Part shown: positions 7,731 through 56,858 of the stretch, piece by piece
How the letters are laid out: every line of letters starts with the position of its first letter
Position numbering within the stretch: the stretch's first letter is position 1
Assembly (NCBI RefSeq): GCF_020085105.1
Contig: NC_058051.1
Coordinates: forward strand, 25,453,455-25,517,454
Source of the DNA: Siniperca chuatsi
Lineage: Eukaryota > Chordata > Actinopteri > Centrarchiformes > Sinipercidae
Reading direction: 5' to 3'
DNA length: 64,000 nucleotides
Notes under the pieces: model-generated
The model's input: the letters and a program-made list of their open reading frames with translations, nothing else
Told to the model about the DNA's origin: nothing
Databases searched by the model: none
Translations under genes and position numbers: made by a program

Positions 7731-7824
<94 letters not shown>

Positions 7825-17428: not shown

Positions 17429-20400
17429 TCAGTCATCTTCTTCCTCTTCATCCTCTACGGGATCTAGGAGGACGCTGTGCTTCAAGCAGGTTTGGAGGTA
17501 GTTCACCACTGTCCGCTGGAAGTGCTGGATGCTGCGCGGCTCTCTCAGGATGTGGCCCTCGTCTGGGTACAGCTGCAGTGAGTAGTTGGCTTCCACCTTC
17601 ACCAGTTGGCTCAGGAGCTCAGCGCTGTGCTGGAAGTGTACCCTTGCTTTGGCCAAACACACACATACATTGAAATTAGAGGTGAAAAAATAAAGAATTA
17701 ACTCTAAAACATAGCATAAAATTTAACAAAATTTCACCATCTGCAGTTCCATGTAGAATAAGGAAATTCTCATCTTTCAGCTTATTAACCTCCTCCAGCA
17801 AAGAGGCAGTCTGAAAAGATATACCATCAAAATATGAGTGATTTATCAGGTTCAACTACCTAGCTGAAACTAATGCAGTCTAACATAACAGCCCTGCAAT
17901 AAATTCCACCTTCATAAAAGTTTAAATGTTAGTCATTTGGTTTGATGACCTGATTGTTTGTGTATATATATACATATATAAAACAATACAATACTATGAT
18001 ATATATATATAAAACAATACAATACTATTAAAAGTTTTAGTAAGTAAGTAAGTAAAGTTTATTTAGTATAACACCTTTCACAGAGCAAAGGTCACAAAGT
18101 GCTTCACAAGAGTAAAATTATTAAAAAATAAAAAGATAAAAAACAATAAAAAGAATCAAACAATAAAACATAAGCAATGACAGACCTTAAAAACACACAC
18201 GATTACAAACACTAGACAGTACGAGGCGAGACAAAGGCCCGTTTGAAGAGTCTTCAGCCGCTTTTTAAAGGCGTCAACAGAGACCGGAGAACGCAAGTCT
18301 ATAGGAAGAGTGTTCCACAGTGTCGGAGCCACTTCCAAAGGCACGATCACCTTTTGTTTTCAGTCGAGCACGAGGGACAACCAGTAAGCCCTGTTTCAGA
18401 GAGCTGTTGATTAAACTTTATGGTCATCTTGGAGGCTGTAGATTATGCGTCATACTGAGTGGTGTTTCTGTAATTTTGTCTGCCCTCACTCATATAAATG
18501 GGGTGGACAAAATATTAGAAACACCTCTCAGTATAACGCAATACAATTCAATTGCACCACCAACTAAACCTGCCAAAATGACCATAAAGTTGAATCAACA
18601 CCTCTTTAAAACAGTTTCAACAAAAACGGAACATTATATCCATCATGAAGACTGGATTTATTGGAGGACTGTTGTATTGGACTGCATTAGTTTTGGGTAA
18701 TAAACTTGCAACTGAGTGTATATCCACACCCTTTAACATTGTTAACTTAGCAAAACCAGTTCCACCTGAATAGTTGAGTTCAGAGCATTAGCTTTAGAGC
18801 CTCACCGAGTAAGCGTGCTCCTCCTTTGCTGGAAGGCCTAAATATCTCTCTGAGAATGCAGCGCCTGAAAAAAGGTGGAATAACATTTACTCTAATACAT
18901 GAACTGTTTCATCACTATTTCCGTGGCCTCAATGTTTGAATAGTTAATGACATGATCTTAACTCACTATAAAGCCTGAAGTCAGTTATCGGCGCCACAAC
19001 AGCCGTGCATTGAAAGAGCTTATCTGTTGCAGCTAACATCTTGAGAGTTAAATAACCACCAAATGCCTGTAGTGAGAAACAGACAAATGCTGAAACAAAC
19101 AAAGCATGTGGTATTTTTGATGGCTTCAATAGGAGTATTGAGTTTCCAAGTATAAAAATGCTGTAACCTTGCCATAGAGGACCATCCGACGATCATCAAT
19201 GTAAGGCAGTTGCATCAACAACCTGTGGAAATATCACAAAATCCTGTTAGTTTAGCAATTCACAGGCATTATTCTCACGTGTCAGTTACCCTTATGTTGT
19301 TGCATAACTGTACTGACTCTACAACTCCCAGATAATCTTTGACTCTAAGTGAGCCAAGCTTGCGTGGATCCACAGCGGTGGTCTTCTGTCCACGGCCAAC
19401 CCCACTCCTGCCGTCCACCCAGGCCAACGCCACATTGTGTGTGCCAGAGAGGACCTGAGGCCAGTCGAGGGCAAATTCCTCTGTCACCGACTGACTGCCA
19501 GGAACGCCATCTCTGAGCGACAAGACGAACAGGATCAGCTATACAGTGACAGCTGTTAGGCGTAGAAGAATGAAGAAAAGGCTAGGGATCATAGGCCGCA
19601 AAACAGGTCACAATAAACAGCCCTTAGCTGTCTTTTAGTGCGCTTGTTCAGTGACGCTTACACAATGATGAGGAGAGGGTGCAGGTTGGCCTCGTAACCC
19701 TGAGGTAGAGATAGTTTCAGGTGTAGATCTAAGGAAAGCAAACGGGTTGAACAAGGTCAGCTGTACATATACATGTTGTATTACTACTATATTTAGAGCC
19801 TCTGCCTGAAATACATCTGAACTGCTGAAGCACATGAAAAGGATCTTAAAAGAGTTCATCCTTAATCTAAACAAAACATAAACACACCTTCACAACCACA
19901 CTCTGAAAGAATACTTGGCGCTGGTCCTTGAGGGCAGGCATTGATTCACACTAATTACCTAATGACCAAATACAAGAAATAACTGCTTTGGTTGGTACTT
20001 AACTATATTTGTCCCTTCCAGGCTGAGATACTGGCAGCCAGTGCTCCATTTTTACTGCTTAATTTAGTGTGACTGCTTGAGAAATGCAGTGAAGGTGATC
20101 TGTGGGTGCTTTGTGACTGTATTTGTGTGGCCAGTATCCTAAATGTCAAACCACAAATATAGCCAATTGTTTCTTTGTTGTACCATGGTTGTCTGCTGGG
20201 AGTGTCCTGAACAGGGTCTCAGGGAGCCTCTTGTCCTCCAGGGCTTTAGCTAGAGGGTTGTTATCCTCCAAGACGACATATCCTACTGGAGATAAAACAG
20301 CGGTGTGTTAGATTTTTAATGCTAAACATCAAGACGCACACAGTATCAGGTTGAGAGGCCAAATCCTCATTACCTCCGAGGAACCAGCTCTAACTGTGAG

Positions 20401-23400
20401 CCACAGACAGAGGGCAGTGTTCACAAGCATGAAATTAATGAATCTACACTGTAGTGTGCTTGAATATACCGTGCTCTGCAGGCTGTCGCGGGTAACTGCA
20501 GACAGCCTCTGTGTGCGTGTGTTTGTGTGTGATTATACCATTAGTCAGACAAGCAGATGTAACACTCACTGGAGGGGTCCTTTGTACTGTGAACTGTCAC
20601 TTTAGGGATTCCTGGGCCTGGGGAAGTTTTCAAAAGACAACATTATAAAACCAACTGTCTGAGCAGCATGAAGCTTTCATATTTCTTGCAAGTGTGTATG
20701 TGTGTGTGTGTGTGTGTGTGTGTCTCTGATTTACCTAAGCAGTAGAGGGTGAAGTGGGTTTGATTGGGGCTGAATTCAGCTTTAAAGAAGCGACATCCAT
20801 CTATGAGGTTACAGGAGATGCACCGGCGCTGAAACACTCCATCCAGGTCCACACTTGGAAATAAGAGAGAAGGGTTATTGACCAGACTTTAAAAGAATAG
20901 AACAGTCTAAAGCGGTTTGATTTGCTCCAGGGGAGGGTCAATTGATTGCTAAGATATTAAGGAAAAGTGTCAGTGTCTTGAGACAAGCTATTCAGGCAGC
21001 TGACTTTTCAGAAACAAATGGGGTTCAATAAGGCTAGACATAAAAGCCGTTACACAGATTGCTCTGTTAGGCGGTGTCGAGTCTCTAAATGCCCGACTCC
21101 ACTCCACTGCTTACAAACTTCATACAGGATTAATCACAGACTTCTGAAGTTCAAACAAGCCATTGTTCCTCCTCCATAATATTGCACTATCTCCTGAAGC
21201 CCAAAGCTACAGTATGTAAGTTAATAAAAAGATATGAAACGTAGGAGGTTGATGAGGGAACAGGCAAGTGTGTTTATCACAGGGGGGACCATAAGTCTCA
21301 GTGACTCGGGCCTCAGCAGCAGAGAGTCCTCGTCCATTGAGTGGGTTTTTTCTGTTATAAATGTGTCAATTCAGCTGTTGGTCTGGTGCATCTGCACCAC
21401 ACAAGGATACATTTTCACATATAAACACATTAGTGTGCAGTTACTCTTCCGATTGCTATTTCAGGCACGCTAGCGGCTTGTCTCTGGGGATGTCCTTCAG
21501 TTGCAGTGTCTGTTGGCCGGTATGTCAATCCACCACTTTGGTACAGGCTTATCAGCTATTGGATGGATTGTCATGGAATTTTGTACAGATTTTGTATTAT
21601 TGTCCCCAGAGGATAAATCCTACTGACTTCAGTGATCCCCTGACTTTTCATCTAGCGCCACCATGAGGTTCACATTTTTGGATGGATAACTATGAAATTT
21701 GATTCAGACATTCATGCCCCCCCCCGGATAAATTGTAGTCATTTTTGTGATCCTCTGACTTTTTGTCTAGTGCCATCATCAGTTCAAATGTTTTAATTTG
21801 TCCTATACTTTAGTTTATATTGGTTTACCTATAAAACTAAGAACATTCTGTTGTGGAAATTAATCAGACTCAGCTGTACTTGTTGCAAATGTTAGCATGC
21901 TAACACTCTAAATTAAGATGGTGAACATGGTAAACATTATACCTGCACCACTGTGCCTTGCCTTTAGACTCCTGTAGTCTTGTTTTAGGTTAAAACAAGA
22001 CATGCTAGCATAGCTACATACTATCTTAGCTACAGTACATGCTAGTGATAATGCTGACATTATAAAAGATAATAATAATCCTTAAGATTAAAGTTGGACT
22101 GAATGAAAAAGCAGCTCTGTTTTAGTCCACAAGACATTGTATATTAGGGATAATTTCAATATTGTATCTGTTTGTAGCATTGTAGAATCAGATTGCAAGA
22201 ATCTGTATTTGGTCACGGTTAGGCCGTTTTTCACAAGGAAGCATGCTTACCTGTACAGGTGTCTGCTCTGTCTGGATTCCTCTGTGCTCAGGAAATAGCT
22301 GATGATGAAAAAACAAACCACAGACACAGCAAGATGCTCAACACTATTCAAGAACTGCAGATCACCTTTGGTTATCTTCACATTCATGATTATTCAGAAT
22401 ATTAATTATTCATGACAAGAATACACAGATTTCTGTGGGCTGACTGCAAACAATTGGCCAGATCTACAATTGACTTTCCTTGATTCTCTGTGATGCTCAC
22501 ACCTCAGTCAATCGGTTCATGAGGGGTTTCTGCCCCCAGCAGGATAAAGACAGATTTAAGCAATAATCTGCTCTGGTCAAGTCATCTCAAATTTGTCCTG
22601 AAATGCATTGCCACAAGCATAGTCAGGGTCAAAGCCATTTCCTTAGGCCTTTTAACCAAGATCAATTCTACATGTTAAAATTGCTCTTTTAATTATTTTT
22701 AAATAGACAGTCTTATGTGTACCATTCACCCAGAGTGTGACCTGGTGAATTAATTTGCTCTCCAGTAGCTGACAACACGTCTAGAATTTGCTCTAAGCTT
22801 ACAGCAAGAGATGATCAGTTTAATGATGGCCACTATTCTACTCCCCCCCCCCTATCTTGTACATTCATAGAAATGAGCTGCGAGCTGTTTAAGGCGGCTG
22901 AAGGGTGATTCAACCTGGCCCCACGCACTGTGGCTCTCACATACATTTTTCCAGCCTTCTCGTCTAGGGCGCAGAGCAAGGTGACGTCCCAGCTCCCTGA
23001 TGTCAAGAAGCGAGGAGGGACGGAGGGGATGGCAAGCTGCGTTACACAGAGATGAACAGGAATGTAGAAGCAGGCATATATACAGAATAAAAATAGGTGC
23101 AGTGATACAGAAAGTGTGTGTCAGAGGATTGGGGGGAAAAAATGAAGATAGGTGCATAAAGTTAAACCAAATGAATGCACTGATGGCTAAGGAGAGAATT
23201 CAGAAACAGTACTTTGTAATTATTGTTTATTTTGACATTGGGACTGAAGTCAAAGAGACACAGGAGAGCAAGTATAAAGCACATGCCCTTTTTAATGCCA
23301 AATTCGCTAAATTCTATAATGAGAATTTAGAAAAAAGAAACACAATGTCATTCCCTTCGGTATAGAAGATGTTTCTAAAAAAAAGCATCATTAAACATTT

Positions 23401-26400
23401 GTTTTAATTGCCCCGGTGAGGATGAATAACTTGTTAAATTGAAATGAACTGAAATGAATTCTTTCAATAATATAAAGTATTAATGAGTGAAATGACTCCT
23501 TAGATAAAAGTGGTGTTTAAGTAATTAGGGAGAAAACAAATCCAAACAAATTGCTTCAATAATAAGAGAAGAATAGGAGGACATTGTAAGCAAACCAGAC
23601 TTTAGGGTCTGTGCTGCTGAGATCTATAATCACACTGTTTTATGTGACCCCTGTTGAAATGTTAATGACCAATTTGGTCAGAAATTATACAAGGATGACA
23701 TGAGGGAGTTAACTGCCCTCACACTGACCTGGGCTGAAAGACCGGCGATGTGGTGAAACTCTCCACGAGCGCCCTGTTTTGCTGGCATGATTGTATAAAA
23801 CACAGAACCGTCTGCTGAAAACAATGGCACGTCCTGTTGAAGAAAAGCACTGAGTCAAAAAAAAACAGTTGTGATAAAGAGGTATAATAAGACTTTATGA
23901 AACATGAGCAATACGTACCTGTCGTTGGTTTTGCATTATGCCCATGGCCATTTTCTGTTTCTATTGATTTAGAATCACACAATATAGAGAAATGTGTTAG
24001 TCATTCCATTTACAATGTGCTTAAATCAACATCTAAAGCTGATTTAAGTAGCATTGTATAAATAAAGCTTATTATATTTTATTAATTATTAAATATAGCA
24101 ATAATAAAACATTGGCAATGGGTAACTGAAATCTGTGAGGATTTACAGAAAGGGAATAAGCAATAAAATACTGCAGTACATAAGTGAAAATTCTTCTCAA
24201 GCAGCAAATGACCTTAAATATTAATCCAGTCAGTAGCCATTTGAGAGTTTAAGGAAATCAATCCTAACTTCCACAGTGTAAAAGAAGCAAAAATTCTATT
24301 AAAGCTGTATATTGCAGCGGGGACCATTTGGATTACTAATGTGGAACGACTGATGACCACTCACCTCTGAGCATGCCCCTGTGGTGGCCTCGCACACGCA
24401 GAGCACTGATTGGTTCTGGGCACGATTCAGCCAACGAACCGCGAGGCGGGTGCTGCTGATCCAAGTCACCATGGATATGTAGCTGTCTCTGAAGAGGCGA
24501 TGCAGTAAAAGATAAATGGGGAAAGAATTGGAAAGTGGTGCAAAGGAATAGAAGGAAAAAAAAAGAAGCGGTGAAGGGGAGAGGAATTTGGACACATGTA
24601 ATCATTTCTGACTGGTGGTGTATAAAGTCTTTAGGGTTTATTCTGTTTTTACATTCACAAAGATGTACTACCTGGCCCTGAGGGAGTCAGGAGGCATCAT
24701 CTCCAGAGTGTGAGCTGGACCATACAGATTCACCACAAACAGACTGACTGATGGGATACTTGAGCCAGCCTGTGAGCACAAGAAAAGTAAAATAAAATGA
24801 TCAGATAAACTCGTAAAAATGTTAAGTGTAAGTTATGGCAAATCTTTTTAGCCACACTAGCGGGAATGGCGATGTTGGTCTGCTGGTCCACCACTTTGGG
24901 CCATGTCTCAACAACTGGACTATTTGATGAATTGCGTTGAAATTTGGTACATATATCCATGGTTTCCAGAAAATTAATCCTAATGACTTTGGCGCTCCTT
25001 TGACTTTACCCCTAGCTCCACTAGCAGATCAAAGTTTTCACTTATTGAGAGAAATATCTGAACATCTATTAAATGGATTGCCATGAAATCTTCATGGTGT
25101 CCAGAGGATGAATCCTAGTGACATTTGAGAGCCCCTAAATTTTTATCTAGTGCCACCATGAGGTTGACTTGTAGGTTTGAGTGAAATGTCTCAACAACTA
25201 TTGGATGTATTACCATGACATTTAGTACAGACATTCATGTTCCCCTCAGGATGAATTGTAATAACTTTGGTGATCCCTTAGCTTTTCATGTTGCAACATC
25301 ATCAGGTCAAAATTTTTATTTGTCCAATATCTGCAAAACTAATGACAGCTCCACCAGTCACAGCTGTACTTACAATGTTAGCATTGTCATTGTGAGAATG
25401 TTAGCATGCTGACGTTAGCATTCAGCTCAAAGCACCGCTGTGTCTATGAACAGCCTCACAGAGCCGCTGGCGTGGCTGTAGACTTCAGTCTTGTTTTAAT
25501 CCATTTTTACCTTTGGGTACGGGAAGAAAACATTGGATGGGTAGAGGCCACCTAAGAAGTGAGGTATTTCCATCAGAGGTGTGGCAGAGTTGTTGATGGT
25601 GAGGTACGCCAGCCGGGCCCCGTCCATAGACCACCAGTGGGCAACATATGTCAAGAGCACTTCCTCTGTTTTAAAAGACAATGTAAGTTGTTACTGTCAA
25701 ACTCAAAGCATACACTTGCTATTCATGATTGTTGCTGTCAACTTGGTTTTGCAGCTTTTTCACTCTATGCTCTAAGTGTAAAAAATTTCTGGCGAAGCTG
25801 GAATACATCCTACCTTCATAAGTCCAATCAGAGAGCCCGTTAACCACATTCTGCTCCTGGTCAGTGGTTGTGAGACGGAAGGGTTTGCTGGTCACGCTCG
25901 GCTTGTAGTAGATATCTCCGTCAAACACATAGGCCTGGCATGAGCAGCACAGACAGACAGTGCCAATCCATTATCAAACACAGTACAGGCTTTATCGTCG
26001 GACACCGTCCAAGACTGAATGAATCACCAGCCAGCACACACACAAGTTAGAGCCAATAGCCTACATCTTTACTCGCCAGTTAATATGCTGCAGATGAGCA
26101 ACGACATAGCAGCAAAAGCCAATTACATTACAGGGAAGGTAGATTAATTATATTATGAGTGTAAAACAACGCTATTATAGCAACACAGTCACAGCAGTAA
26201 CCTCTAAGATGGAGTTCATCTCATAATGACAAAGACATGATACCACTGATGTTATCATTATGAAAATTATGTCAAATGGAGGCTCCATTCATACACAGAC
26301 TGTATTATTATAGATTGCAAAGGTTTAGAAAATCTTCTTGTAATATTGGCAGGTATAGTTGATGCAGATGACAGAGACAACACATTGATCAGGTAAATGA

Positions 26401-29400
26401 TAAAGTGCCTGTCTTACCAGCTGGTTCCCCTGAGTGCCCCAGGAAGCATATTGTAGCACTGCCTTCTCCCTCTCCGGAGGGTTAAGCTCCAGCAGATCCC
26501 TGGAACACACACAAAAACTCAGACATAAGCCCTCCATTAGGGACGAGTGTCCTGTTTAAAGCCCTCTGAGGTCCATCCATGCCCTGGTCTTGAAATTTGC
26601 TTGAGAGAGATGCTGTACTTTGAGGACAAAAGAGCAAGATGCAGAGAGGGAAAACAAAACAGAGAATAGGGTTGATTCATGCAAAAGTGCAACATTTCTT
26701 TTTCCATATTTCTAGCCGCACTTATTTTCTTCATCAGGACAGGCAAACATTTTCCTCCAAGGCATACTCAGGCAATGATCAATACTGCAGGTCCTCTTGA
26801 AATTTTCAGAACCATTCCTCAGAAGTTCCAGGAATCATCCACAGCTACCACAGAGTTTTGTCCACTGATTTAATGCGTAATATGAATCTCAGGCAGTGAA
26901 ATCTGAAGTACAGTACAAACCTTACATTGGGATATGGAACCTGGAAAGAACACTGACGAATGAATGCATGTCTGACAGAAACATGAGGTTCTGATTCGAT
27001 GAGACACATTCTGGGGGACGTTTTTCAATCCACAGGTCTGCTTGCATTGGTAACGCTCATGCCCAGTGCAGCCCATGCATTAGCATTCATGAGTCCACCT
27101 ACCCATTAGCCACATTGTAGATAGCATAGGAGGCTGTGAAGGACTGAGAGAACACCTGAAAGAGGTAGAGGATATCATGCACACAGGTGTGCACACACAG
27201 ACATATTTTAGCGCTCACACATGCTCATTCACATGTATAAAGAAAGTTAAATGCAAATGAAACAAAGGTTATGAAGAACACTGCTGAGTCCAACCTTACA
27301 ATTAAGCAATAAACAACAGGAAGCTGTGTTTGTATTCTGTATTTTCTCCTGAAATCACTTCAAAGTAGTGCACCAAGTGGCTTATTGTTTTTTTGTGTTG
27401 GGTTTAATGAACACAGAATTATTTTATTAATAATAGTTTAATAACAATATAATGTTATTCTTTCACCTAAAAAAAGCAGTATTAGCAAAGTGCCTAATAC
27501 TGTAAGTATCTGTATGTGTGGTCATTTGTTACTGAGACAATCACAGCCTAGTACTATACACTTATTACTAATTTATTTGAGTCATTAAACCACTGACAGC
27601 CATTTTATCCATATTACATCAATATTGTGTTCACATCTGAAAAACAGAAATTTGGCTCATGGGGACACTTAAGACTGAGTAAAAGACACAACATAAAAGA
27701 CATGACATATGAAAGGAAATTACACAAACTAAGACAGACATTCTTATTAAATAAGCATCATTACAGCTAACATCCTTCCCACTGCGATCTATTGTGGCTG
27801 GCAAATCTGCCGCAACCCTGACACAAGCATCAGCTGTTCGATCATTAATTAATTCAACATGCTGAAGAAGACTAAGGTTGCAGAATCAATTAATGTGTGC
27901 ATGTCTATGTGTAGGTGTTAACCACAACTGATCATAGCATTACCTGATGAATTCTAGTTAATATATTGATTTGTACCAATATTTCTTTTTTCACGTAAAG
28001 GGTTGGAAGCAGGTTATTTGCCCACTGACCTCTGAAAGCCTGAGTCTACTGGAAAACCAGTCCCTAAAGAAATTAAATGTCACATCCTCTATACAGCACT
28101 CTTAGCTGTGGAATTGGATTTCTCCTCTGTGTTGTTCGTCTGTTGTTAGAAAATGCATGGATGGAGTGAGGCAGGGGTAAAGCCGCAGGGATGAAGGCAG
28201 GGAAATAAATTCTAAGGCTATCTAAATGAAATTGAAATCTGATTGCGGTGTAAAGTCTGAGCATGAGGGGCAACAGGGTGTACAGGAAAAGAGTTGTGTT
28301 ACAACAGAAAATAACTGCAGGAACAGGAAAGGGAAGGAATGAATTGGTCAAACAATAAAGGAAAAAGTGAGGGAGGAGATAGAGAGAGAAAGAAACAAAG
28401 ACAGGAAGGGAGGAAAGGATGCAGAGAGGGCAGAGGCACTGGCTGACACTGCCAGAGTTGACAGATACTCGACACACAACAAGGACCGATCTTGAGTTAG
28501 AGGGAGTATATCTTCAAGACCAAAGGGGGCAGCACTGACATGAGCACCATGTTCAATCGGCTGTTTATGATTAGCTAAGGAACCCAGAGATTGTGCTCAT
28601 GATTTAACATCATAAAGCTGATGGCAGAGGCTGTATGTTATTGTGTGTTGGCGTGATAAACAGACAGAGAGAATGAGAGCATCTGTCTTGGAGAGGCAGA
28701 GTGAATTCTAATGTAGCTGCCAGTAACACATCATAAATCCTCCAGATCGCTCTAGCTCCTCACCCCCCTTCACTACCCACCCCCTCCCCTATCCATGTCG
28801 CCAAAACGGGGGGGTAGGGGCACAACGTACAGATTAAACACTCAGAAGATGGCGTGGGATAGCGTGACAAAGAAACATATAGAGATTTCAACACCCTTAG
28901 CATGAGCACAGATACTGGGATCTATTGCACACCGCAAGATACACAACACAGAGATAATAGCATCATTCCTTCTCAACATTGTCCCTGCCTCACAAGCATT
29001 TCTTAGTAGCCCCACAATGCGCTGCCTTTGATACCAGCACTCATCAGTGTTTGCTGCAGAGTGCAGACACATGGCATTTTGTTTGTCTCTAAACTGCACT
29101 GTCTTGACAGGTTCTGGTCCGACTGCTCCTGCTCATCAATCTCAGAAACCTCCATCTCCTCTAGGTTATCTCGCCATCACTCTTTCAAAAATATGTAGGT
29201 CTTCTCTTTCTCCTGTTCTCCTCTTACACATAAACCTGTTTAACTCAAATAGGCTTTTAGGAAAGACATTTTCCTGTAGGAAATCTGCTTTCTCTTGTTC
29301 CTATGTGACCAAATCCCTAAACTCACTTCCATGTATACCCTCTTATCAAAATCCATTTATTTTCAGCCAGCAGGCATAAAACCCTCCCTAAAGCCTCCAG

Positions 29401-30774
29401 AGCTAATACAAAATCCAGAGAAGCCTTTTAACTTTACCCACAGTCTGCTCATCCATTTCTCTCTACTGCAGCTCTCTCCTTTTAGCATCTCTGTCATTCT
29501 TTGATAACTGGTCTGATTGATTTCAACTGGGCAGTGTATCTAAGGGCAAATGGTGCATAACCCATTTGCACCCCCATTGCAAGTGGCTTTCCCCACTGCT
29601 CTCTCTGTTTTTCTTTCTTGTTCTCTGCCACTCTTAGCAGCGTGCCGCTCCTCTTCCAAACAGCAATGCTGGTGCCTGGCGCAAACCGCTTCAGTCAGCA
29701 TAAAACCCCCCAGAGATAGCCAGGAAAAAGTGAGTGAGGACTATGAAGCGGGAGAGAGAAGGAGGGAGGTAGAAAGAAAGGGAGAATGGAGGAATGGCCC
29801 CCATGCACACAAAATGCCAACCATGCTCACACACATCTATCCATTTCTAAATATACAAATGATTCCAGATGGCATGCCCACTTTCTCTGATTTCTTCGAA
29901 ATACACACTGAGCATAAAAATGAGAACAGACAATTCCTGCTGACATCAAAGGAAGTATGCTAATGACATGACATAAACTAACCAAAGCAACCCACATATT
30001 GGGCAAAGATCTGAGCCCTTTCTCTACGGAGATATCGAAAAAATTATTGAACGTATGTTAACAGCTCAATAATTCAGTTGCAATGGATGCACTGTGTTTG
30101 TCGCGCATACTGTAAGACAGCAACAGGCTCATTCACCCCCCCACAGAAAATATGATACGCAGTGATTAGAGCAAAAGAAGATCTCAAAAAGGAACCCCAG
30201 AGAGATAGAAGAGACTGAACAAATGAGTGTGAGAGAGCAGCAAAATCTGCTTTCATATTTTTAATAGAAATATGGGGAAATATGCTGAGGGCTTTCATTT
30301 GCTCCTAATTCTGTTTTCTTCCCTCACAGTTTACTTGTACATTACACAACTTGCCTGCCCTTTGAGGAGAGACTCAACTATTTATTAATGGTGCGGGTAT
30401 TTACAGAGTGAGATGGCTGGTGGAGGAACTAAGCTATGTGGTGTTAAAGTAAAAGGAGCAAAAGAGATGTGTTTTGTGTCTACCCCAACGCTTGTCTGAA
30501 ACCACCTGCGATTGTGATTCTCGTCAGCTTCTCATTAAAATTCCCCACCAAACTAGTGGGGCAATTTCATTACAGCAGTTCCAACTTTACCGCTTCATCT
30601 CCTTGATCTCCCCTTCCCCCTGCTATCCACTTCACACTGATCACTCACTCTAAGCTTTCCTCAACCCCCTGCACCTTCCACCATCAGCCAGTTTAAATAT
30701 TCAACTCCCCATATGTTATTCCAGTCATTTGGCGAGCAGTGTTATAGAGCTAAAGACTGCTGCAGTAGCAAAAT

Positions 30775-30812
<38 letters not shown>

Positions 30813-33800
30813 CTTCTCCTCAACCTCCTCCTTCATGTTCTTGCTCCTTCTCTCTGCTGTTTCTTCGGGGCTCTGATTAGGATGCATGTCACCATTGTTT
30901 TGCAGCCTCTAGTGGCCTGCCAGACATGTGGAGATGTGTGCGCGGTAACAGATTGTCTTTGATATTCATGGATAATTTATGACTCTGGATGTTTTCTGAG
31001 AGAAAAAAGCTTGACTGTGCTTTCTGGAATAAATCGGAATCAACTTGGCATTCAGAGAAAACTTACCGGTCGAATGTTATATGCCAAGAGGACAAACCTC
31101 TTGTCTGCAGACACTTGGAATTTAGTAGTGGTCAGGTCCTGTAGGAAAAAAGGGAAAAATTAGACAACACATCATCAACAACTTCCATTTGGGGATAAAG
31201 TGGGTTGGGGTATAGCACTTGACATGTGGGGTTCCTCAAGGGTCAATCCTGGGACCTGGCTTATTCTCCCTTTACATGCTCCCTTTAGGGCGCATTACCT
31301 GTCAGTGTTTATAACCTATTTATTCTCAAAAGCATTTTAAGCTTCCTCGCCCTGATTTGTTGTTACTATTTAACAATTTTTGCTTGTCTTTAAATATTTC
31401 TACAGATACTTTTTTATCATTTTTTGTGAAGTACTTTATAACCCTGCTTTTGAAAAGTGCCTCACAAAAAAGTTTTACTTTAGTACTGTGAATTTTAATC
31501 TTCAAGTTTGACACTATATTTAGCTAAAATCTCAGCAATTCGTATATTCAGGGAAACCCCATGTGTGTCTTGGTATTCATACAAGAAAATATATTTTTCT
31601 GGAATTTGCAACAGCAGCAGAGATAACAAACCATATCACAACACCGAGGAGAGACTTTTTCTCAACCTGACAACACAACCCTGCTTTAAGCTCCTCGGCA
31701 TTGACCCATATAAGTCTGTCAGTGTCGCGCAGAGGCGGTGTTCAAAAAGATGCCCTTGCTTGGAAATTCTCTTTGAAGGCATGTTGAGGGCTCACAGAGC
31801 AGCCAGATTTGGGGGCAATGAGCTGATACTGTCACTCTGCCAAATCTTTTTTTGTCTCAAGTGTGGGATATGAAACAGTGGGACACTTCTAGCTTCTCTC
31901 ACTCAATCTGAAAGCATCATCTTTCTATTGGTCAATTTGTCCAGCTGTCTGTGGATACGAGCCAATCAATACTGAAATCTGTCCTCTGTCCTGAGTGTCC
32001 TCATAAGCTGAGTTGCTGTAACTCACCAGGGAGCTGTTGTCCAGCAGAGTCCTGGTGAGATTGCTGTTGAGGCCGAACGACAGGACATGTCCTTCTCTGG
32101 TGCGGAGAGCCACTTCGTTTTCTGACAGGGTTAGAGCGTCCTGTGTTATTAGAGTGACGGCTTAAATCCACAGAGGCAGAGATGGTTGCTAGGTCTGCAA
32201 ACCAGTGGCTCCGTTTCAGGTGAGATCATTTAAGTGGTTTTAAACCGTCATGAGCACTTTGTCAGTCAGGAGTAATTTGTGAGAACAGGAATCCTTACCG
32301 TTTAACCATGCCACACAGGGGTCATGAACTTTGAATTCTTCACTCGCCAGATCCTCCATAGTGAGATGGGAACGGAGTAACAAGTGAGATTCATCTTCAT
32401 AAGCAAAGAGAAGTGTTAATTAGTTCATCAAAAAGTATGCCCCGTTTACAGAAAAGCAAAACCTACATTTCTGCTTCGGTCTTAGATTCATTTTTTCACT
32501 GTTAATATATTCGAAACATTTGCAACAGTTTTAAAAAGCTTGCCCACATTATGCCTCCCTTTAAAGCAAAAGTTTGACATTTTGAGAAATACGCTTGCTG
32601 GAGGAGACTTAAGATGACAAGATGGAATACCGCCTCATATCTGTACATTAAATATTAGGCTACTAGCCTTTTCTGGCTCTGTCCAACGATAACAAAATCC
32701 ACCTACCAGCATCTCCAAAGTTCAGTAATTAACACATTATATCTTGTTTATTTAATCCATACAAAAATCAAAGTGTAAGAACGTCAATTCACCGTTTTGA
32801 GAGACTATTTCATGGCTGGGAGCAGTAACTTCTTGAAATCTCTCATGGTTGCCTGGCAACTGCTCTGAGGCAAGAAATAGTCACGGAGAGATTCTAACTC
32901 TCCATAAAATGGAGATTTGTTGTTTTTTTGGCTGAGGTTTTGGTACAGATAAAACTAACAAAGTTATTTTGAGGGCTTTAGAGGTTCTTATCGTTGGACA
33001 GAGCCAGGCTAGATGTTTCCCCCTGTTTCCAGTCTTTGTGCTAAGCTAAGCTAACCTGCTGCTGGCTGTAGGTTCATATACTGTATAGCCTACAGACATG
33101 ACAGTGGAATCAATCTTCTAACGTAACTCTCCAGAAAGAGAATAAGCGTATTTACCAAAATGCCAAACTACTCCTTTAATTCCCCACATTAGAACTCCTC
33201 TCTACTTTGCTGCTTTTACTCTTCCAAACAGCTCTTCTTACCAGGCGTGAGGAGGATGACAGAGAGAATGACCAGAGACATAACAGCCAGGATCACCACC
33301 ATGGCAATTCCTATGCCCTTCCAGTTCCGCGGAGGACCATCTGAACTCCCCAGGTCCTGATATGAAAAGAACGCACACACACAAACACAGTGATGAATGT
33401 GTGCACAGTCGAGGAGAAGGACATTAGTGCTGCTTCATTTCCACGGTCTCACAGAAAATTCTCCCCGACAGGCATATTAGTACAGTGAGCCTCAGGGGAA
33501 CTGAGTCTCCAGCATCACAGAGTCCTCGCTGAATTACACAAATTTTCCATCTGAGAACTGCATAAAATTGTTGCATATGAAAGATCAGACTTTAATTGCA
33601 GCAGCAATTTTGCCCGCACCATAATTTTTCTTTACCTACGCCTCATTTCACCTGTTACACGACTGATGAGCCATGTGGTTTACTAAAACATCTGCATTGG
33701 TGGACCAGGATTTATTTAACAGCTCTGGATAAAGTTGTCAAAGAGGCAATAAAAATAAGGAGAAGTAGATGAGACTGTATAACTATACAATGGATTAAAA

Positions 33801-36800
33801 CAAAGCTTCAATTACGAAGAGAGCAAAACTTCAAGTTTAAGCTCAAGTCCTTGTACACCCTCTGTATGTGATCAGGGGGAACTGATGGAATAAGCCAGCA
33901 TCAGTATCAGTCACAATTAAACACAATTGCGTGCCGCTCCCAGGCAGCGCTCCACTCCCTCATAATGAGTGGCTGGCGCTGCTGGAGCCACATGGGTGTT
34001 GGAGTGTGAGAATTCAATCACAGAGCAGCTATAAAATTCAACCTTCATTATGACTGCCCAGTCTTTTGGCTTAACCCTCACAGCCTCGCCTCTCCTGATC
34101 ACCTTCCTCCAGGCCTTGGGGAGGTGGGCAGTGGAAAGAGGGCATCTAAGTGGTTCACTGGTCAACAGATTGCTGCTCCTCCGTGCTCCCTGGGTGACAC
34201 CAGCTGTCCCTGAGTCTGTGCTACTGGCAACACAAGCCTTCATTCCCCCACCTAGCACTTCCTCTTCACAAACATACACTCCCTTGAGCATCCAACTTAA
34301 AGTCCCTTGCAGATGTTGTATTAAAGTGCTGAAAACTGATAATGTACTTAAATAACAGGAGTCAAAATGTCTTAAATACCCATTTCAGAAAAGTGAATTC
34401 TGCAGGAACTGAAGAGTAAAGGTCAGTGCAGTTGAACCAAAAGCAGTGGGGTTTTTTTGTTAGGATAAAAATCCTTGATACACATTTTTTTATTGTAAGG
34501 AAGCAGATATATTTAATATCCAAGATGAATGGAAGACATACAAGGTCTGCTCTAGCTCGACTGGTTGCCAGCGCAGAACTCCTGCCAAGGTCTCATCTTT
34601 AATAGATCTCCTTGGCTGCAGTATCATAACATGCTCAAATTAAAAGCACTACCAGTTGCACCTGCAGGGACAACTTTTAAGGGATGTTTGAACTCTCAGT
34701 GCAGGACAGAGCTGAGTGATTGATGTCCAAGGCTGTGTATCTACTGGCCTTTCTAACACTTTTATCTCATTCTCCTGCCCTCTCTGCATGCAAAATCTCA
34801 GTGAACCACCATTATCCTTCCAACAGCTAAAGAAACCTACAGTAGTCTAGGCTTTTATACAGTCAATACTGAATCATACTGCATCTCCATGTTTGACTGA
34901 ACTGTTATAAATTTGAAAAAACTGCACACAACAAACTGGGTATATGTTGTATGAAATTTCAATCCATGAATAGCAATGGTCACATATCTTAAAACATATA
35001 ATGATAGTGATTCCAGGATCTCATAGTAGAAAGGAACATTTTAAATTAAATTCCTCCACCTGACTGATTACATCATATAGTGTATTCATTTCCAAGTCCT
35101 CACTCTAATTACTGTGTGCAATGTGAGCGCTGAAACATCCTCCTAATGGGATGCACAGCTCCTATTATTTCTCTGAGCCCAGACATTAGACCATACTTCC
35201 AATTAAGGTCACATCATTGTTAAGACAGACGGGAGAATCCCACATTTGGGCGAATGAGGAGTTTTGTCACAGAATCCCCAGAGTGAACACCGGCAAAGCT
35301 GCTAGTGCCAACTGGCTGTTGGTCACAATAGATGCGGGAATCTAATGCAGCACAAACTGCTGGCATGGGTGAACAGATGGTGAGCTGCGCTGTATGACGG
35401 ACCGGTCTTATCACAGTCAGCACCCTGATGGACAAGCAAATATATCTCAGAGCAGGTTTTCTGCTGAGCCAAATCAAAAACACACATAGACCTTTCTAAG
35501 TGGGACATCTATTTTATTCAGCCTTTGCGTAATCCCACAGGAGTTGGAGTAGAAGTTTAAATGAGGTGTCAGTCAAACACCAAAGGGTGCAAGAATGCAA
35601 ATCAAAGGTCTTTATGTTTATGGATAACTCCTGAAGGAATCCCCTTGAGAGGATTCTTTCGGCAAACCGTGCAGAACTACATTAGAGAAGAGAGAGCTCT
35701 TACGTTTGTGAGCTAGGGCATTTTCATTCAACCAAATGAAACAATCGATAAGGTGGACAGTTGTACAAGGTCCAGAGGGAAACAATTAATGGTGTGAATA
35801 GAGCCATAAAGGAGACTTTAAGGTCTGTTGAGCACTGTTTCTTCAACACCTCCATGTGGAACACCAAGACCTATTCTGACCTTAAAAACTTAAAAATCAT
35901 ACTTATCGGACTGGAAGTGTTTATTAAACTGCACACAAACAGATTTCAGCTCACTGGATCCTTTTTCACAGAGCACTGTACACAAAATCAACCAATTCCA
36001 ACTGTATTGAGTGAGCTTGCACACTAAAAAAGCAAGCCACACTAAACACAATTACTCACTCTGCACAGCATGCAACACAACTAGGTTGCGCAGAATACAA
36101 GCGGTGCTAAGAATTTATAAATTAGGCTCAGGAGACCTCCTTAATTCCATCTTCTGTGTCTTTGAGGCATGGAGAATCTGACAATAAATCACATGCAGTG
36201 GAATGAGGGAACCAGTGCAGGCTGTTAGGGGATTCTGGTTCTGAATTTGCATACCCCTAAACCCCCTTTTAACATCAGGCAATGATGTTTATTACACACA
36301 TGACATTGGCAGAGGCATCAATGAAATTACCGCCATCATAAAAAGGGTGAGATCTATTGGCAGACACATACAGCATTCAATAGCCTATATGCTCCTGATA
36401 CTAATGATTCACTGTAATTGCTCACAAGGGGAAAGCTGTAGATTAGCAAGTAACCCACGTATGCATTACCTTGTCACTATCTTTCACAGCCTCATTTAAA
36501 ATCAAGATCATCATTAGAGCAGCCTGTATTTGTAGTGTGGTTGGAATAAATGGTAACCAACCAGCTGTGGTAATGAGATACTACAGCTCAGTACTGATTA
36601 ATATCTAGGCTATCTTTCATCATATACAGAGGAATTTCTTCGCTCACTGCGCCACCATTTCTCCCTTTGTGTTTCTTACCTAAAAAAAAAGCCGTAGGTG
36701 GTATAGACACCATATGGGACTAACTGGGCAGATTTCTTGCCCCCGAGGCTATTCCCAGACAATGCAGCACAAGCCTTTGTGAAATGAAAGACCTGCCGCT

Positions 36801-38847
36801 TTAGCCTCTAGTGCTGCAAGGCTGCCCTGCCATCTTTTTCTTTTCATGCTCCCCATCACGTATAAGAAAAGTACTGTACAAAAGGGTCCTGTATGAGGAA
36901 GCTTTCCTCAGCATGTCCAGCCACTCGCAGTGATCGAGTTCAGCCTTAGGAAACAAGCAGCATCACTAAAACACATGTGGGAGAGCTTCAGATGACATGA
37001 TATAGAGTTACAGTAAAATGTGAGAAAGAATATGTTATTTTTCACAGCAAATAATATGCTTATAATGTGCTCACGGCATTCACTATAAGAATTTACTGTG
37101 TCATATTGTCACATTACCAGTGTTGAGGATGAATATTAAAACAATATTACCTTTGAAAAAACTAATTAAATCACTTATTTCCTTCCTTAATGCAAGGGAT
37201 TAACTGAACCAGAACCAAAGCATTATTTTTTTCTGGCATGAAATTGTGATATTGGTGTCTTATTTGGATATGACAGAGAGCGATATCACAAGTAATTTAT
37301 GTCGACTCTGCAATGCTCTTTGCTCCTTCTGTATCATGGTATGTCTAATATTATTCCACACAAACATCCAACCCAGATTATCCCCTATAGCATTGCATCT
37401 TCTCACCAACGGAGACAGACATGACAATCTGTAACCCAGATTTGCCTCATTAATTGCTTAACTATGTAAAGCATATTGATTGGAGACTGTGGCATGACAT
37501 ATTGCGACATTTACAGGTAATGGATTGTCTATAAACCCTGCAGCACTGTGTGGCCCTCCCAAGGAGACAATAACGCTGCAGGATTATCACACAGATGCTT
37601 CAGACAGGTTTCACCATGATTTTATCACATCATCATGTGAGTAAAAGCACTCTAGGTCAATGTCAAACATCACTATGCTCATCCCAGTTAGACATAATTT
37701 AACTAATAATTTAACTCCTCCTCTAGGCTCTCAAACACTTTCTCCACCAGAGACAGCTGGGTATTAATGATCTCATGATTGAAACTCTCTCCCAAGAGGA
37801 GTGACAGTTTGATGAGATCTGTTAATTAGTTGACTTGGCAAGGGTTTCAATTGTTGCACTGCACTGTAGAGAAACAGAAGCACCCGAGTACAATATCTGT
37901 AAAATGACTGATGCAGCTCAAGAAAGTTGTATTCAAAGAAGGAAACAATGCATATTAGCTATGCGTAGATATTAGTCGTATAAATACCAATGAAAGCAAA
38001 GTGTAAAACCAGTGTGATGATTAATCTGAAGCAAGCATTTATCCCCATCAGTTACATTACATTAAACCATTAACAACTAGACCATAATTCTATACACTAT
38101 TGCTGTTAAAATCAATAGTGGATCTTCTGTAAAATCCACCTAGTGTATAATGCATGTTTAATCTCAGAAATTGATTGTTTGCTCACATGTTTCTTCTGAC
38201 ATATAAACAGAAGTGAACTGTCTTTTAAATAAACCCGAAAAAAAGTCCCATTGAATGGGAGAGCTGCATTAAATAATAATTTACAGAGCATTTAGGATAT
38301 GTGTCATCATTAGTAAGGAGTGTTAATGGTGTGAGCAAAAAACAGAGGATGTTGTTCATTGACAATACACCAACACAGCAGAGGGATAATCAATCACACA
38401 GTGCAGGCTGTGTGTTTGAGCGCCTTTGTCACTGTGCAGGTTCAGGCTGGAGGGGACAGACTGCTGGGACAAATTCTATCTGAATATTAGACTGCAGATA
38501 TCATGCTATAAAAGTCTGCATGGGACAGAAAGAAAATAAGAGTGAGAGGCACTGGACGTCGAGTTACAACACCAGCATGCACCGCAGTGCACAGAGTCAA
38601 GCCTGTCCAGGAGACAGATGAATATTGACGGCTGAAACACTAACTGATAGTCACCGTATTGTTTGCATGCACGAGGAATTCCCCGCTGCACATCTGAGAA
38701 TCTCCCCTCACAGACTGGAGACATACATGCACGCACGCACACACACACTGCTCTGAACTAGGGATAAAACAAAAAATAAATAAATAAATAAAACACAAAC
38801 ACACATACCAGCTCCGTGGTCATGTTTTGTTGAGTTGTGGCAATCAT
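17429..38847 (-). CDS. DPP6/DPP10-family inactive dipeptidyl peptidase (third paralogue type)
   Basis: Type II membrane glycoprotein of the S9B family; the relatives DPP6 and DPP10 are auxiliary subunits of Kv4 potassium channels. Twenty-five coding exons: 38847-38809, 33356-33242, 32394-32299, 32121-32027, 31138-31067, 27155-27103, 26499-26418, 25934-25814, 25665-25511, 24769-24672, 24482-24365, 23954-23919, 23833-23729, 23036-22945, 22298-22251, 20853-20735, 20617-20570, 20285-20184, 19728-19662, 19512-19309, 19222-19168, 19066-18967, 18864-18806, 17810-17738, 17646-17429. They total 789 residues (human DPP10 about 796). Short cytosolic tail, NWK-flanked membrane helix (about 27-49), beta-propeller with the E-E pair in DWTYEEEV (224-226), then an alpha/beta-hydrolase domain. 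The catalytic serine is replaced (GKAFGGY, Ala641), while Asp717 and His749 remain. The acidic C-terminus ends in DD. The start ATG at 38847 follows an in-frame stop; a second ATG eight codons on is possible. Propeller stretches resemble DPP10 and others DPP6 (GVPGSQSV), so I leave the symbol blank. Confidence 0.93.
18034..18420 (-). mobile_element. 3' fragment of a LINE retrotransposon
   Basis: On the minus strand the words [16 protein letters not shown] and [14 protein letters not shown] can be read, the C-terminal end of a fish non-LTR reverse transcriptase. They lie in different frames, so the copy carries a frameshift. A (TTAC)n tail at about 18034-18056 marks the 3' end. Just outside, at 17955-18030, a unit of about 22 bp (ATAAAACAATACAATACTAT) occurs twice. 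The fragment is 5'-truncated and lies in the DPP-like gene's intron 17811-18805. Confidence 0.75.
18452..18695. mobile_element. Palindromic MITE fragments, two ends facing each other
   Basis: The arm at 18452-18488 (ATACTGAGTGGTGTTTCTG...) is the inverted complement of 18500-18534 (GGGGTGGACAAAATATTAGA...). This GGTGGACAAAATATTAGAAACACC terminal sequence belongs to a short inverted-repeat element common in fish. The outer ends of two copies face each other across an 11-base gap. The second copy runs on to about 18695 without a clear far end. Confidence 0.6.
20694..20723. repeat. (TG)n microsatellite
   Basis: A short TG run in the intron immediately downstream (in transcript sense) of the exon 20853-20735. 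Confidence 0.9.
21515..21995 (+). repeat. Fish dispersed repeat, copy 1
   Basis: Contains the words CCACTTTGG, ACTATTGGATGGATTG, GACATTCATG, TAGCGCCACCATGAGG and TTAGCATGCTAACA in the order seen in a repeat common in percomorph introns. The same order appears in the copy at 24850-25500. It lies in intron 20854-22250. No coding capacity and no clear terminal repeats. Confidence 0.65.
22299..22944 (-). other. Intron without recognisable content
   Basis: Intron of the DPP-like gene; I see no repeat or exon. The same holds for the introns at 19729-20183, 23037-23728, 23955-24364 (AT-rich), 25935-26417 and 26500-27102. Confidence 0.6.
24850..25500 (+). repeat. Fish dispersed repeat, copy 2
   Basis: Same family and same orientation as 21515-21995, longer and more complete. 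It runs from CTGGTCCACCACTTTGGG through repeated CAACTATTGGATG units to GGCTGTAGACTTCAGTCTTG. Internally it repeats a module of about 90 bp (GGATTGCCATGAAAT...CATG...GGATGAAT), suggesting it grew by internal duplication. It lies in intron 24770-25510. Confidence 0.65.
27156..31066 (-). other. Large intron (3.9 kb) of the DPP-like gene
   Basis: Holds a (CA)n run at 30778-30810 and long purine- or pyrimidine-rich stretches (for example 28320-28440) that give rise to open frames of biased composition. I recognise no exon, RNA gene or mobile element. Confidence 0.6.
30778..30810. repeat. (CA)n microsatellite
   Basis: About 16 CA units in the large intron of the DPP-like gene. Confidence 0.95.
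31215..31320 (+). pseudogene. LINE reverse-transcriptase fragment
   Basis: One plus-strand frame reads [10 protein letters not shown] followed by [10 protein letters not shown]. This is the conserved palm motif (VPQGS.LGP.LF.LY) of non-LTR reverse transcriptases. The frame stops within about 15 codons, and the surrounding sequence is not recognisable, so this is a short relic. It lies antisense in intron 31139-32026 of the DPP-like gene. Confidence 0.8.
32561..33179. mobile_element. Non-autonomous DNA element with about 35-bp inverted ends
   Basis: The left end (AGTTTGACATTTTGAGAAAT...ACGCTT) and the right end read on the other strand (AGTTTGGCATTTTGGTAAAT...ACGCTT) match after one small gap. 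The interior also folds back: GGCTCTGTCCAACGATAA near 32675 against TTATCGTTGGACAGAGCC near 32988. This is a familiar fish MITE with no coding capacity. It fills most of the intron 32395-33241. Confidence 0.75.
33357..38808 (-). other. First intron of the DPP-like gene (5.4 kb), repeat-poor
   Basis: Between the N-terminal exon and the membrane-helix exon. Unlike most larger introns of this gene it shows none of the fish repeats recognised elsewhere in the window. Several blocks (about 36170-36640 and 37240-38060) are rich in homeodomain-type words such as TAATTA, TTAATTG and ATTAAT. In DPP6 and DPP10 this position holds alternative first exons and regulatory sequence. I could not pick out an alternative exon here. 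Confidence 0.45.
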
Positions 38848-44100: not shown

Positions 44101-47100
44101 CATGCATCCCCAACCTGGGTGGCACACCGGTCAAAATTGGGGAGGTGTGAGAACATTTTTCATAACTGATTTCTCTCCTGATGTGCAGGTACATGCACAA
44201 GTTTATTTCCACTCTGAAATGTTATTACCGTGCTGACAGTCTACCCCATTTCTCATGTTTCCAGGGTGTGCTTGCAGACTACGTCCCTGACACATCGCCC
44301 ATGATTCCTCCTCTTGTTGTCCACTGTATCAGTGAGATCGAGCAAAGGGGCCTGCATGAGGTGAATGGTGTTTTCCTCTCTTAATAATATGGAGAAATGT
44401 GAACAGCCTCAAATACCAGTAGTTATCTTTAATGTCTTTCCCTTAAACTGAGACAGAGAGCTGTAACTAAGATATTACAGTCTGTTCCTGGGAGATTAAA
44501 TCCGTAATTGGACTTGTGGAAGGGCTCCAGATCTATTGATTTCTGCGTGACTGTGCTGCTGTCTTTTCCTTCTGTTGTTTTATGTTTTGCTCCTTTCTGT
44601 CTTTACGTCTTTGGCATTTGTTTTGAGATGGCAATGAAATGTTGGCTTTTTTCCATCTGAAACAAATTTGCCCCTACTTCTGTCTCTTTTGAAGATGATA
44701 CCTTTTATCTTAATGGCCCTAAGCCTAATAGCGTTATGTCAGCTGTTTTGCTGAGAAATTGTTAGTTATTTTTCTTGTTTTTTTCTATTTAGATAGTGGG
44801 AAAGGTCTGACTTAAAACAATTGTCTGACATAAAAAACGCACACATAATGTTTATTCGCTTTGAAAATTAAACAGTAAATGGTGAAACTGTATTTCCTAC
44901 CTCTCAGGCTGGACTTTACCGTCTGTCTGGTGCTGATCGCACAGTAAAGGAGCTGAAGGAGAAGTTTCTGCGCAGCAAAACAGTTCCCGTGCTCAGCAAG
45001 GTGGACGATATCAATGCCATCACTGGCCTCCTGAAGGACTTCCTGAGGAACCTCAAGGAGCCTCTTCTCACCTTCCGCCTCAACCGTCCTTTCATGGAGG
45101 CAGCTGGTGTGTGTGTGTGAGACTGGTGTTAAAAAAGATGCCAGTGTTATTGGTAGCTGTTTCTGATATGGAGGGCTCCATAGAAAAATGTTAATGGCAC
45201 ACTAAATAAAAGCAATTTATGGTAGATATTGAAATAACTGAAACTTTATAACTTTCAGTCTAACTTTATAATGGACAGCAGACATTTACCCAACAGACCC
45301 ATTAAATGCAGGTTTCATGAGTGCTTCTACTTTGTTTTTACAATTGTTCTGAGCAGTGATGGAAACCTCAGGCGGGAAGTTGCCTGCCAAAAAAAAGATT
45401 GATCTTTCAGTTTGTTTGCCTTTTATATAGAATTTGGTTGTTATTGGAGTCAGATACATTTTCTTTCAAGTTGTTAATACATCCTCATACAACCTCCCAT
45501 TTCTTGGTCTCTGCTGACAAAATTGTTTTGTTTGTTCTCCCTCAGAGGTTTCAGACGACGACAACAGCATAGCTCTGATGTACCAAACCATCAGTGACCT
45601 GCCACAGCCCAACAGAGACACACTGGCTTTCTTAGTCCTTCACCTTCAGAGGTTCAGAAATACTTTATTGAATCAGAAATAGCAGCTACTCTCCTCTAAA
45701 TATGATCCTAATAAACCTATTAATGCATATCCCAATGCAGCTGATTAAAAAGCATTCACTCTGCTTTGATGCCTTGCATATTCCTGCTACAAAGTAGTGC
45801 TGGGATTTGCTGATATTCACAGAAGTCTGTAGTCTCTCTGTAACTGACCTTTTTTATTATTATTTTGCTGTATCCTCTAAATTTAATAAGGTTAAATTGC
45901 TGTAGGCAAAAATGTGCTAAGAATTTAGCAGCTCAACTGTATCTCATTTCCTGATTTTAGACAGACAAGAAAATCAGTTTATTTAACCTAAAATACACTT
46001 TAAATGGTGTGTATTGTATTTCATATACATTAAATAGACATAATTGAATCTAATAAAATCTTTCAGAGTTGCTGACAGTTTGGACACCAGGATGGACATC
46101 AGTAACTTGGCTCGAGTGTTTGGTCCAACTATTGTGGGCCATGCAATTCCCAACCCCGACCCTATGACAATCCTACAGGATACCAAACGACAACCTAAGG
46201 TAGGCCTGAACGATCCATCGTGTCTATTGTATATCATGTTTCTTCAGTGGTTAGTCATATAATTCCCATATATAGAAAACTTTAAAGTTCTAGTTGATTT
46301 GACACCCATGGTTACTGGTGGTAACAGTGTGGTTCAATACTACAGGTCCCAGAATTCTGGGGACAGCAAACACAGAAAAGCATCTTGTGTGTCTGCTCAC
46401 AGTGTAGCCAAACAAACTCACGTTGTTTTGATAAAGAAACCAGTCCATAACCCTGCCCTTTTCCATCATGCCATGGGCAACTGCTATCTGATGTCATGCT
46501 GAGCACGGTAAGACGAGTGAATCATCTTCCTGAGAAGTTGTAGGTGCAGCCTGTCGCCTGCAGCTCTTCATCTAACAGTTCACTGTGGTCCCTCCTCCTT
46601 GTTCCTTTACACAGTGCAATATTTAAAACTGATCAAGTGTCCAAAAAAGGCCGTAAATGACCATATCCTGTTTCCTGTGACTGCTTCACAATAAAAACCT
46701 CCTTGTGTTTTGCCAGTTGAATGCTTTTAATGTGAACTAACTAATGTAAACAGTGAGGCAGATATTAATGAGATAAAAATTAAAAGCCAGAACAGTGGAG
46801 TACATAAATGCATCGGTTCCTGTGAATTGTTCATGTGTAAGGAGGCAATTTGAATCCAGCGCAGGAATGGCAGACTCTGCCACTAACAATGAAAACTACT
46901 GTATAGAGAGGTAATTATAGAATGTAAATAAATTGACTAGCCACTGCTGGAAAAAATGCCAATCACAAATACTATCAAAAATGGTGTTTTTATTTCATGA
47001 AATACGATTAAAACTTTCTTTCAAATCAAAATGTTTAACATGAGACAAAACTCAGTCTCAAAGTCCAGATGAGATTTCACTATTTTAAAGTATCAAAGGA

Positions 47101-56786: not shown

Positions 56787-56858
<72 letters not shown>

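Follow-up and report, generated by a model that had tools for sequence, protein, structure and literature searches.

In human, DPP10 (DPPY) lies at 2q14 and DPP6 (DPPX) at 7q36. Proteins of this kind (DPLPs) have no active serine and are described as changing the trafficking, surface expression and gating of Kv4 channels (PMC3973911). The transmembrane helix of DPP6S is described as packing against S1 and S2 of Kv4.2 and may speed gating (PMC8566240). The MNQTA N-terminus carried by DPP6a and DPP10a is reported to give N-type block (PMC3366920).

Here, we analysed a window of 64,000 nucleotides (G000:C10:25453455-25517454, in an assembly of 719 Mb), by which we mean the whole stretch of DNA under study. 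On its minus strand, at 17429-38847, it holds an intact gene of the DPP6/DPP10 group. We consider it reasonably probable that this gene, whose product would be catalytically dead, is a third early-vertebrate ohnologue on the equivalent of the human 12q13 block, and that it encodes a probable Kv4-type channel subunit. The gene adds one member to a known kind. In the literature searched (titles and the opening parts of abstracts), no third DPP6/DPP10-type gene is named, and the part of PMC8302630 that was covered does not mention DPP or hedgehog. The gene may well be listed already by automatic annotation.

Structure of the gene

The reading frame comprises 25 exons and 2370 nt and encodes 789 residues followed by one terminal stop, with no internal stops. 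All 24 introns start with GT and end with AG. Coding exons were recovered by splice-aware alignment, using human DPP6 and a DPP10 sequence taken from solved structures as guides. This yielded 24 exons, to which we added the first exon proposed in the first-pass annotation. The resulting model reproduces exactly the end points given there (17429 and 38847), and the clean spliced frame bears out the claim of a complete 25-exon, 789-residue gene. DPP6 and DPP10 are described as sharing a core of 25 exons (PMC3973911), to be compared with the 24 exons plus exon 1 found here.

Exon 1 (38809..38847) is the least certain part of the model. It provides an ATG and 13 residues of a predicted cytoplasmic N-terminus and is in frame with exon 2, and has no homology support; its modest GT donor falls outside the six candidates at or above the donor cut-off of 5.5. 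Neither MNQTA nor any of a few related first-exon motifs was found on the minus strand at 33300-64000 of the window. Exon 2 (33242..33356) encodes the transmembrane segment. It is followed by exon 3 (32299..32394), exon 4 (32027..32121) and exon 5 (31067..31138); the last of these follows the DPP6 guide, as the DPP10 guide lacks most of this stretch and gives a shorter exon. Exons 6 to 8 lie at 27103..27155, 26418..26499 and 25814..25934. Exon 9 (25511..25665) is also matched by the DPPIV_N model, and exon 10 (24672..24769) precedes exon 11 (24365..24488), which encodes VRWLNRAQN. Exons 12 to 15 are found at 23919..23960, 23729..23833, 22945..23036 and 22251..22298, and exons 16 to 19 at 20735..20853, 20570..20617, 20184..20282 and 19662..19728. 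Exon 20 (19318..19512) forms an early part of the Peptidase_S9 domain. The nucleophile elbow straddles exons 21 (19168..19222) and 22 (18967..19066), after which come exons 23 (18806..18864) and 24 (17738..17810).

Exon 25 (17429..17646), with an acidic tail and the stop codon, is a fusion. In the dpp6 gene on C13 and the dpp10 gene C12p of the same genome, a 74-nt exon and a separate last exon take its place, so the window gene has one 3' intron fewer. Exon lengths are otherwise nearly equal to those of C12p. The introns rule out a retrocopy, and 25 clean exons without an internal stop, together with the retained cysteines, rule out a pseudogene. A clean frame at the divergence described below points to a gene that is under selection.

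The encoded protein

The protein contains a DPPIV_N domain (308.1 bits) and a Peptidase_S9 domain (132.5 bits), as do DPP4 and FAP. In a phmmer search of the PDB, human DPP10 scores highest (813 bits), followed by seven DPP6 chains (702-755 bits) and, far behind, DPP4 and FAP (at most 417 bits; FAP, compared by score only, reaches ∼395 bits). With this ranking and scores far above chance, the DPP6/DPP10 architecture that had been proposed for the gene holds. The DPP10-like and DPP6-like segments quoted in its favour are likewise present in the frame. The motifs [13 protein letters not shown] and PDEGH are shared with DPP10, and GVPGSQSV and KVTVH resemble DPP6. Structures have been solved for relatives that are about 50% identical.

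At the nucleophile elbow, the window protein reads GKAFGGY where both DPP4 rows have GWSYGGY, so that alanine replaces the catalytic serine. Human DPP10, which also has no serine here, carries glycine, human DPP6 aspartate, and the two dpp6 genes of the same genome alanine (C13, as in the window protein) and valine (C19); from these last two, the position appears to drift in fish. A short insert that follows the elbow in human DPP6 is absent from the window protein and from both of these dpp6 genes. GTAD and DE.H, which we take to mark the places of the catalytic aspartate and histidine, are retained as in DPP4 and FAP. In exon 20, the DGRGSGF loop (DGRGSGF/Y or a near form in the other rows) is altered to DGRSGVG. 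Based on these residues, the product is probably an enzyme-dead S9B protein of the DPP6/DPP10 group.

Cysteines occupy seven columns common to all nine DPP6/DPP10-type rows including the window protein; an eighth column, covered by six rows, is cysteine in each of them. Across the DPP6 and DPP10 rows, seven in number, 164 sites are invariant; of these, the window protein keeps 124 and alters 40. Its transmembrane exon ([28 protein letters not shown]), of the NWKGIAIA type, is identical at 19 of 28 positions to human DPP6 and at 20 of 28 to C12p (19-20/28 when the C13 dpp6 is included), and at 16/28 to both C24 and C12m. Human DPP6, the C13 dpp6 and C12p agree with one another at 24-27/28. The protein thus has the two domains, no catalytic serine, one N-terminal transmembrane helix and a short cytoplasmic end, the latter provided by the predicted exon 1, as in the DPLPs.

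DPP6/DPP10-type genes elsewhere in the genome

A protein search of the genome (E 0.01) gave at least 47 exon matches among the best 58 of 79 candidates, which were the ones scored: 19 on C10, 13 on C12, 6 on C24, 5 on C19 and 4 on C13. These belong to the window gene and to five further genes of the DPP6/DPP10 type. Two are dpp6 genes, on C13 (G000:C13:14.50-14.51 Mb; score 2036 against human DPP6, 1589 against the DPP10 guide) and C19 (G000:C19:21.47-21.48 Mb; 1960 and 1541). Two are dpp10 genes, one on the plus strand of C12 (C12p; 1730 and 2231) and a second on C24 (1287 and 1619). The fifth, C12m, is a diverged DPP10-like gene on the minus strand at G000:C12:3385022-3453002 (1279 and 1596). 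All of these scores include unreliable and partly spurious N-terminal pieces, because recovery of the paralogues' N-terminal exons was not reliable. Separate dpp6 and dpp10 orthologues are therefore present, and the window gene is not the sole copy of either in a new place; it lies on a different chromosome from both dpp10 genes.

C12m stands tail-to-tail with the neighbouring dpp10, with ∼8.6 kb between them. Its identity to the three DPP10 rows is no more than 54-57%, and it has glutamate at the nucleophile position. Like the window protein, it is a diverged DPP6/DPP10-type protein that falls firmly into neither standard clade. In the count of the first-pass annotation, the window gene was a possible third copy of its kind. 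It is indeed separate from the dpp6 and dpp10 genes of its genome, but with C12m as a further diverged gene the number is too simple.

A 205-bp tract that includes a 195-nt exon is 97.6% identical, in inverted orientation, between dpp10 and C12m (L043 1152-1356 against L044 5163-4959). Over the core, the two proteins are just 57% identical even with this tract counted in, and the tract is best read as the product of gene conversion or of local copying in inverted orientation. Prokaryote contigs, searched with one 65-residue exon for stray vertebrate DNA, gave 139 pattern matches, none of which encodes a relative.

Phylogenetic placement

The tree was built from 11 rows and 563 columns under LG+C20+F+G4 (PMSF) and covers the core only, which starts with the IFENNIYY exon and runs through to the C-terminus. 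Human DPP4 and the dpp4 of the same genome (C24:14.85 Mb, with DPP4 as its best solved matches) formed the outgroup. Further DPP6 and DPP4 chains of known structure were omitted, as were FAP, DPP8/9 and the DPPIV_N loci at C12:13.89M, C6 and C13:18.99M. The rows from C24, C19 and C12m stop short of the C-terminus; for the tree and AU tests, C12m had its converted exon masked, whereas the identity figures include it. Over the core, the window protein is 50% identical to human DPP10, 47% to the two dpp10 proteins of its own genome, 43-45% to the four DPP6 rows, 44% to C12m and 30-33% to the two DPP4 rows. Between DPP6 and DPP10 rows, identity is 48-54%.

A branch with 100/100 support groups the window protein with DPP6 and DPP10 against DPP4. 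Within this group, it nests inside neither the teleost dpp6 nor the teleost dpp10 genes: the DPP6 clade (100/100) and the pair of dpp10 proteins from the same genome (100/99) both exclude it. In line with this, AU tests reject a grouping with the two dpp6 genes of the genome (p 6e-7; 1.6e-5 without the outgroup), with C24 alone (p 0.032, the same without the outgroup) and with C12p alone (p 0.026; 0.024 without the outgroup). A relocated dpp6 copy and a sister of a single dpp10 of this genome are thereby rejected. The deeper position is ambiguous and stays so when C12m or the outgroup is dropped. The tree places the window protein with human DPP10 at 48/87, with deep branches below 60% bootstrap, and none of the deep groupings (all DPP10, all DPP6, C12m, teleost dpp10 pair) is rejected (p-AU 0.20-0.49). 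A sister place to all DPP6 rows has p-AU 0.40, grouping with all DPP10 rows 0.24 and grouping with all DPP10 rows plus C12m 0.32. Grouping with C12m gives 0.26 (0.20 without the outgroup), and grouping with the teleost dpp10 pair to the exclusion of human DPP10 is just 2.8 log units worse, with p-AU 0.30 (0.26 without the outgroup). At 18 sites with fixed differences between DPP6 and DPP10, a small number, the window protein agrees with DPP10 at nine, with DPP6 at four and with neither at five. Its end branch measures 0.85 (0.81-0.90 across analyses) against 0.19-0.22 for human DPP10, which makes it about four times as long.

Neighbouring genes and chromosome linkage

The window gene is flanked on one side by part of a citrate synthase (CS) gene (5100..5372, minus strand; PDB match of 150 bits). 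On the other side lie the RhoGAP part of RACGAP1 (44872..45117, plus strand; Pfam and PDB matches), exons of a DUF1295, steroid-reductase-like protein (50373-50991, minus strand) and BAR-domain exons of a BIN2-type gene (55667..57525, plus strand), located with a guide sequence. The BIN2-type gene is 16.8 kb from the DPP gene, with RACGAP1 and the DUF1295 gene between the two. CS and RACGAP1 are thus confirmed among the neighbours named by the first-pass annotation. For the neighbour called BIN2, a BAR gene of the BIN1/BIN2 type is confirmed, but the score does not separate BIN2 from BIN1.

At the scale of the genome, linkage was followed with searches in which the best candidates only were scored. 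Hedgehog exons gave at least 11 matches, on C13, C19, C24, C12 and C10, and these five chromosomes are the same as those on which DPP6/DPP10-type genes were found. Engrailed gave at least four matches, on C24, C12, C19 and C13, and INSIG at least six, on C12 and C19. Neither has a match on C10 among the candidates scored, which makes these absences soft. BIN1, BIN2 and AMPH lie at 2q14, 12q13 and 7p14 in human. In the fish genome, at least 16 BIN/AMPH matches fall on C10 (here the gene in the window itself), C2, C24, C12 and C13, with none scored on C19; those on C24 and C12 are ∼24 kb and ∼20 kb from a hedgehog gene. FYRC matches, which we assign to the KMT2 type as a group, number at least six. 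One lies ∼40 kb from the C10 hedgehog gene; on C13, another is ∼134 kb away from the first dpp6 exon recovered there, and the remainder are on C9, C17 and C7 (two). In human, KMT2D is close to DHH at 12q13 and KMT2C is near DPP6 at 7q36. The proposal that this block is a paralogue of those carrying dpp6 and dpp10 finds support here, with hedgehog and BIN/AMPH genes on C10 as well as on dpp6 and dpp10 chromosomes, and FYRC genes on C10 and C13.

The C10 hedgehog gene lies beyond the window, ∼8.9 Mb from the DPP gene. It scores 284 bits against SHH, 273 against IHH and 247 against DHH, and agrees with DHH at one of nine sites where human DHH differs from the SHH and IHH rows. We assign it to dhh only by exclusion and linkage. 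The description of the surroundings as a DHH/12q13-type block stands in so far as C10 carries a fifth hedgehog gene and a BIN2-type gene; the hedgehog gene is 8.9 Mb away, however, and its sequence is nearer to SHH and IHH.

A second BIN2-like gene is present at G000:C2:29492367-29493329 and is probably the teleost twin of the BIN2-type gene in the window. No DPP match was found on C2 among the candidates scored. Together with the linkage on C10, this is the pattern expected if a third ohnologue has survived and its twin from the teleost duplication has disappeared.

Origin of the gene

The linkage on C10 favours a third ohnologue. As to the early age proposed for the gene, the tree upholds the part that it is neither a teleost dpp6 copy nor the sister of one dpp10, but a branch on the stem of the fish dpp10 genes is not rejected either. 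The window gene could accordingly be a fast-evolving duplicate of dpp10 that arose in ray-finned fish, after the split from tetrapods and before the teleost duplication, and moved to the C10 block. The small penalty for grouping it with the teleost dpp10 pair and its best score, to DPP10, speak for such an origin. Yet its introns exclude a retrocopy, its highest identity is to human and not to fish DPP10, and a random landing would have had to hit the chromosome with the fifth hedgehog gene and the BIN2-type gene, when C10 makes up 31.4 of 719 Mb (∼4%). We regard this origin as unlikely, although the missing engrailed and INSIG matches on C10, together with the softness of such absences, make it slightly stronger and a third ohnologue slightly weaker. 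A teleost-duplication copy of dpp6 or dpp10 that simply relocated is very improbable. Teleost genomes were duplicated once more, which makes additional copies plausible, but dpp6 and dpp10 are each represented by two genes elsewhere in this genome, and the AU tests reject both the dpp6 grouping and sistership to one dpp10.

Descent from an ancient tandem partner, the lineage of C12m (which stands tail-to-tail with dpp10), and not from the DPP6/DPP10 line itself would account for two diverged, DPP10-like proteins whose grouping the AU test does not reject. The two proteins are, however, just 44% identical, an unsystematic look revealed no feature specific to the pair, and their long branches may attract each other. 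We consider this descent distinctly unlikely. Returning to the third ohnologue, a broader scenario can be drawn, to which we give somewhat less than even weight: jawed vertebrates would have begun with at least three DPP-like Kv4 subunits, of which the third, on the cs/racgap1/bin2 (DHH/12q13) block, would still be expressed in fish, where it evolves fast and forms a distinct gating subunit, and would have been lost in mammals. C12m may be another such subunit.

Putative role at Kv4 channels

From family membership and the transmembrane segment, we predict a role at Kv4 channels. We would expect the product to be a membrane glycoprotein of type II, in which a single transmembrane helix joins a short cytoplasmic end to an ectodomain of the DPP4 fold. 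If expressed alongside a Kv4-type channel, it could pack its helix against S1-S2 of that channel, help bring the channel to the surface and speed its gating. The helix is present, the serine absent and the ectodomain kept, which makes work like that of DPP6 and DPP10 the likeliest function; by analogy with these proteins, we think it probable, on balance, that the window protein acts on Kv4 channels as they do. An old ohnologue may also have left Kv4 and taken up different work, for instance in adhesion at the cell surface. The long branch, the altered DGRGSG loop, the changes at sites invariant in the rest of the family and a transmembrane helix less conserved than among human DPP6, the C13 dpp6 and C12p would suit such a change. 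Set against this, the helix still agrees with these three proteins at about two thirds of its positions and the ectodomain cysteines are kept, so that we rate a role away from Kv4 as rather unlikely, if worth keeping in view.

If the third-ohnologue reading holds, fish may possess a further kind of potassium-channel subunit beyond the two known from mammals, and their Kv4 physiology would include a subunit that mammalian work does not cover. The window protein would also offer a natural variant of both ectodomain and transmembrane helix with which the needs of Kv4 modulation could be mapped.

Other features of the window

Neither an Rfam scan at gathering scores nor a tRNA scan gave any match in the window. 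At 7735-7823, on the CS side of the DPP gene, the dinucleotide AG is repeated perfectly for 44.5 copies.
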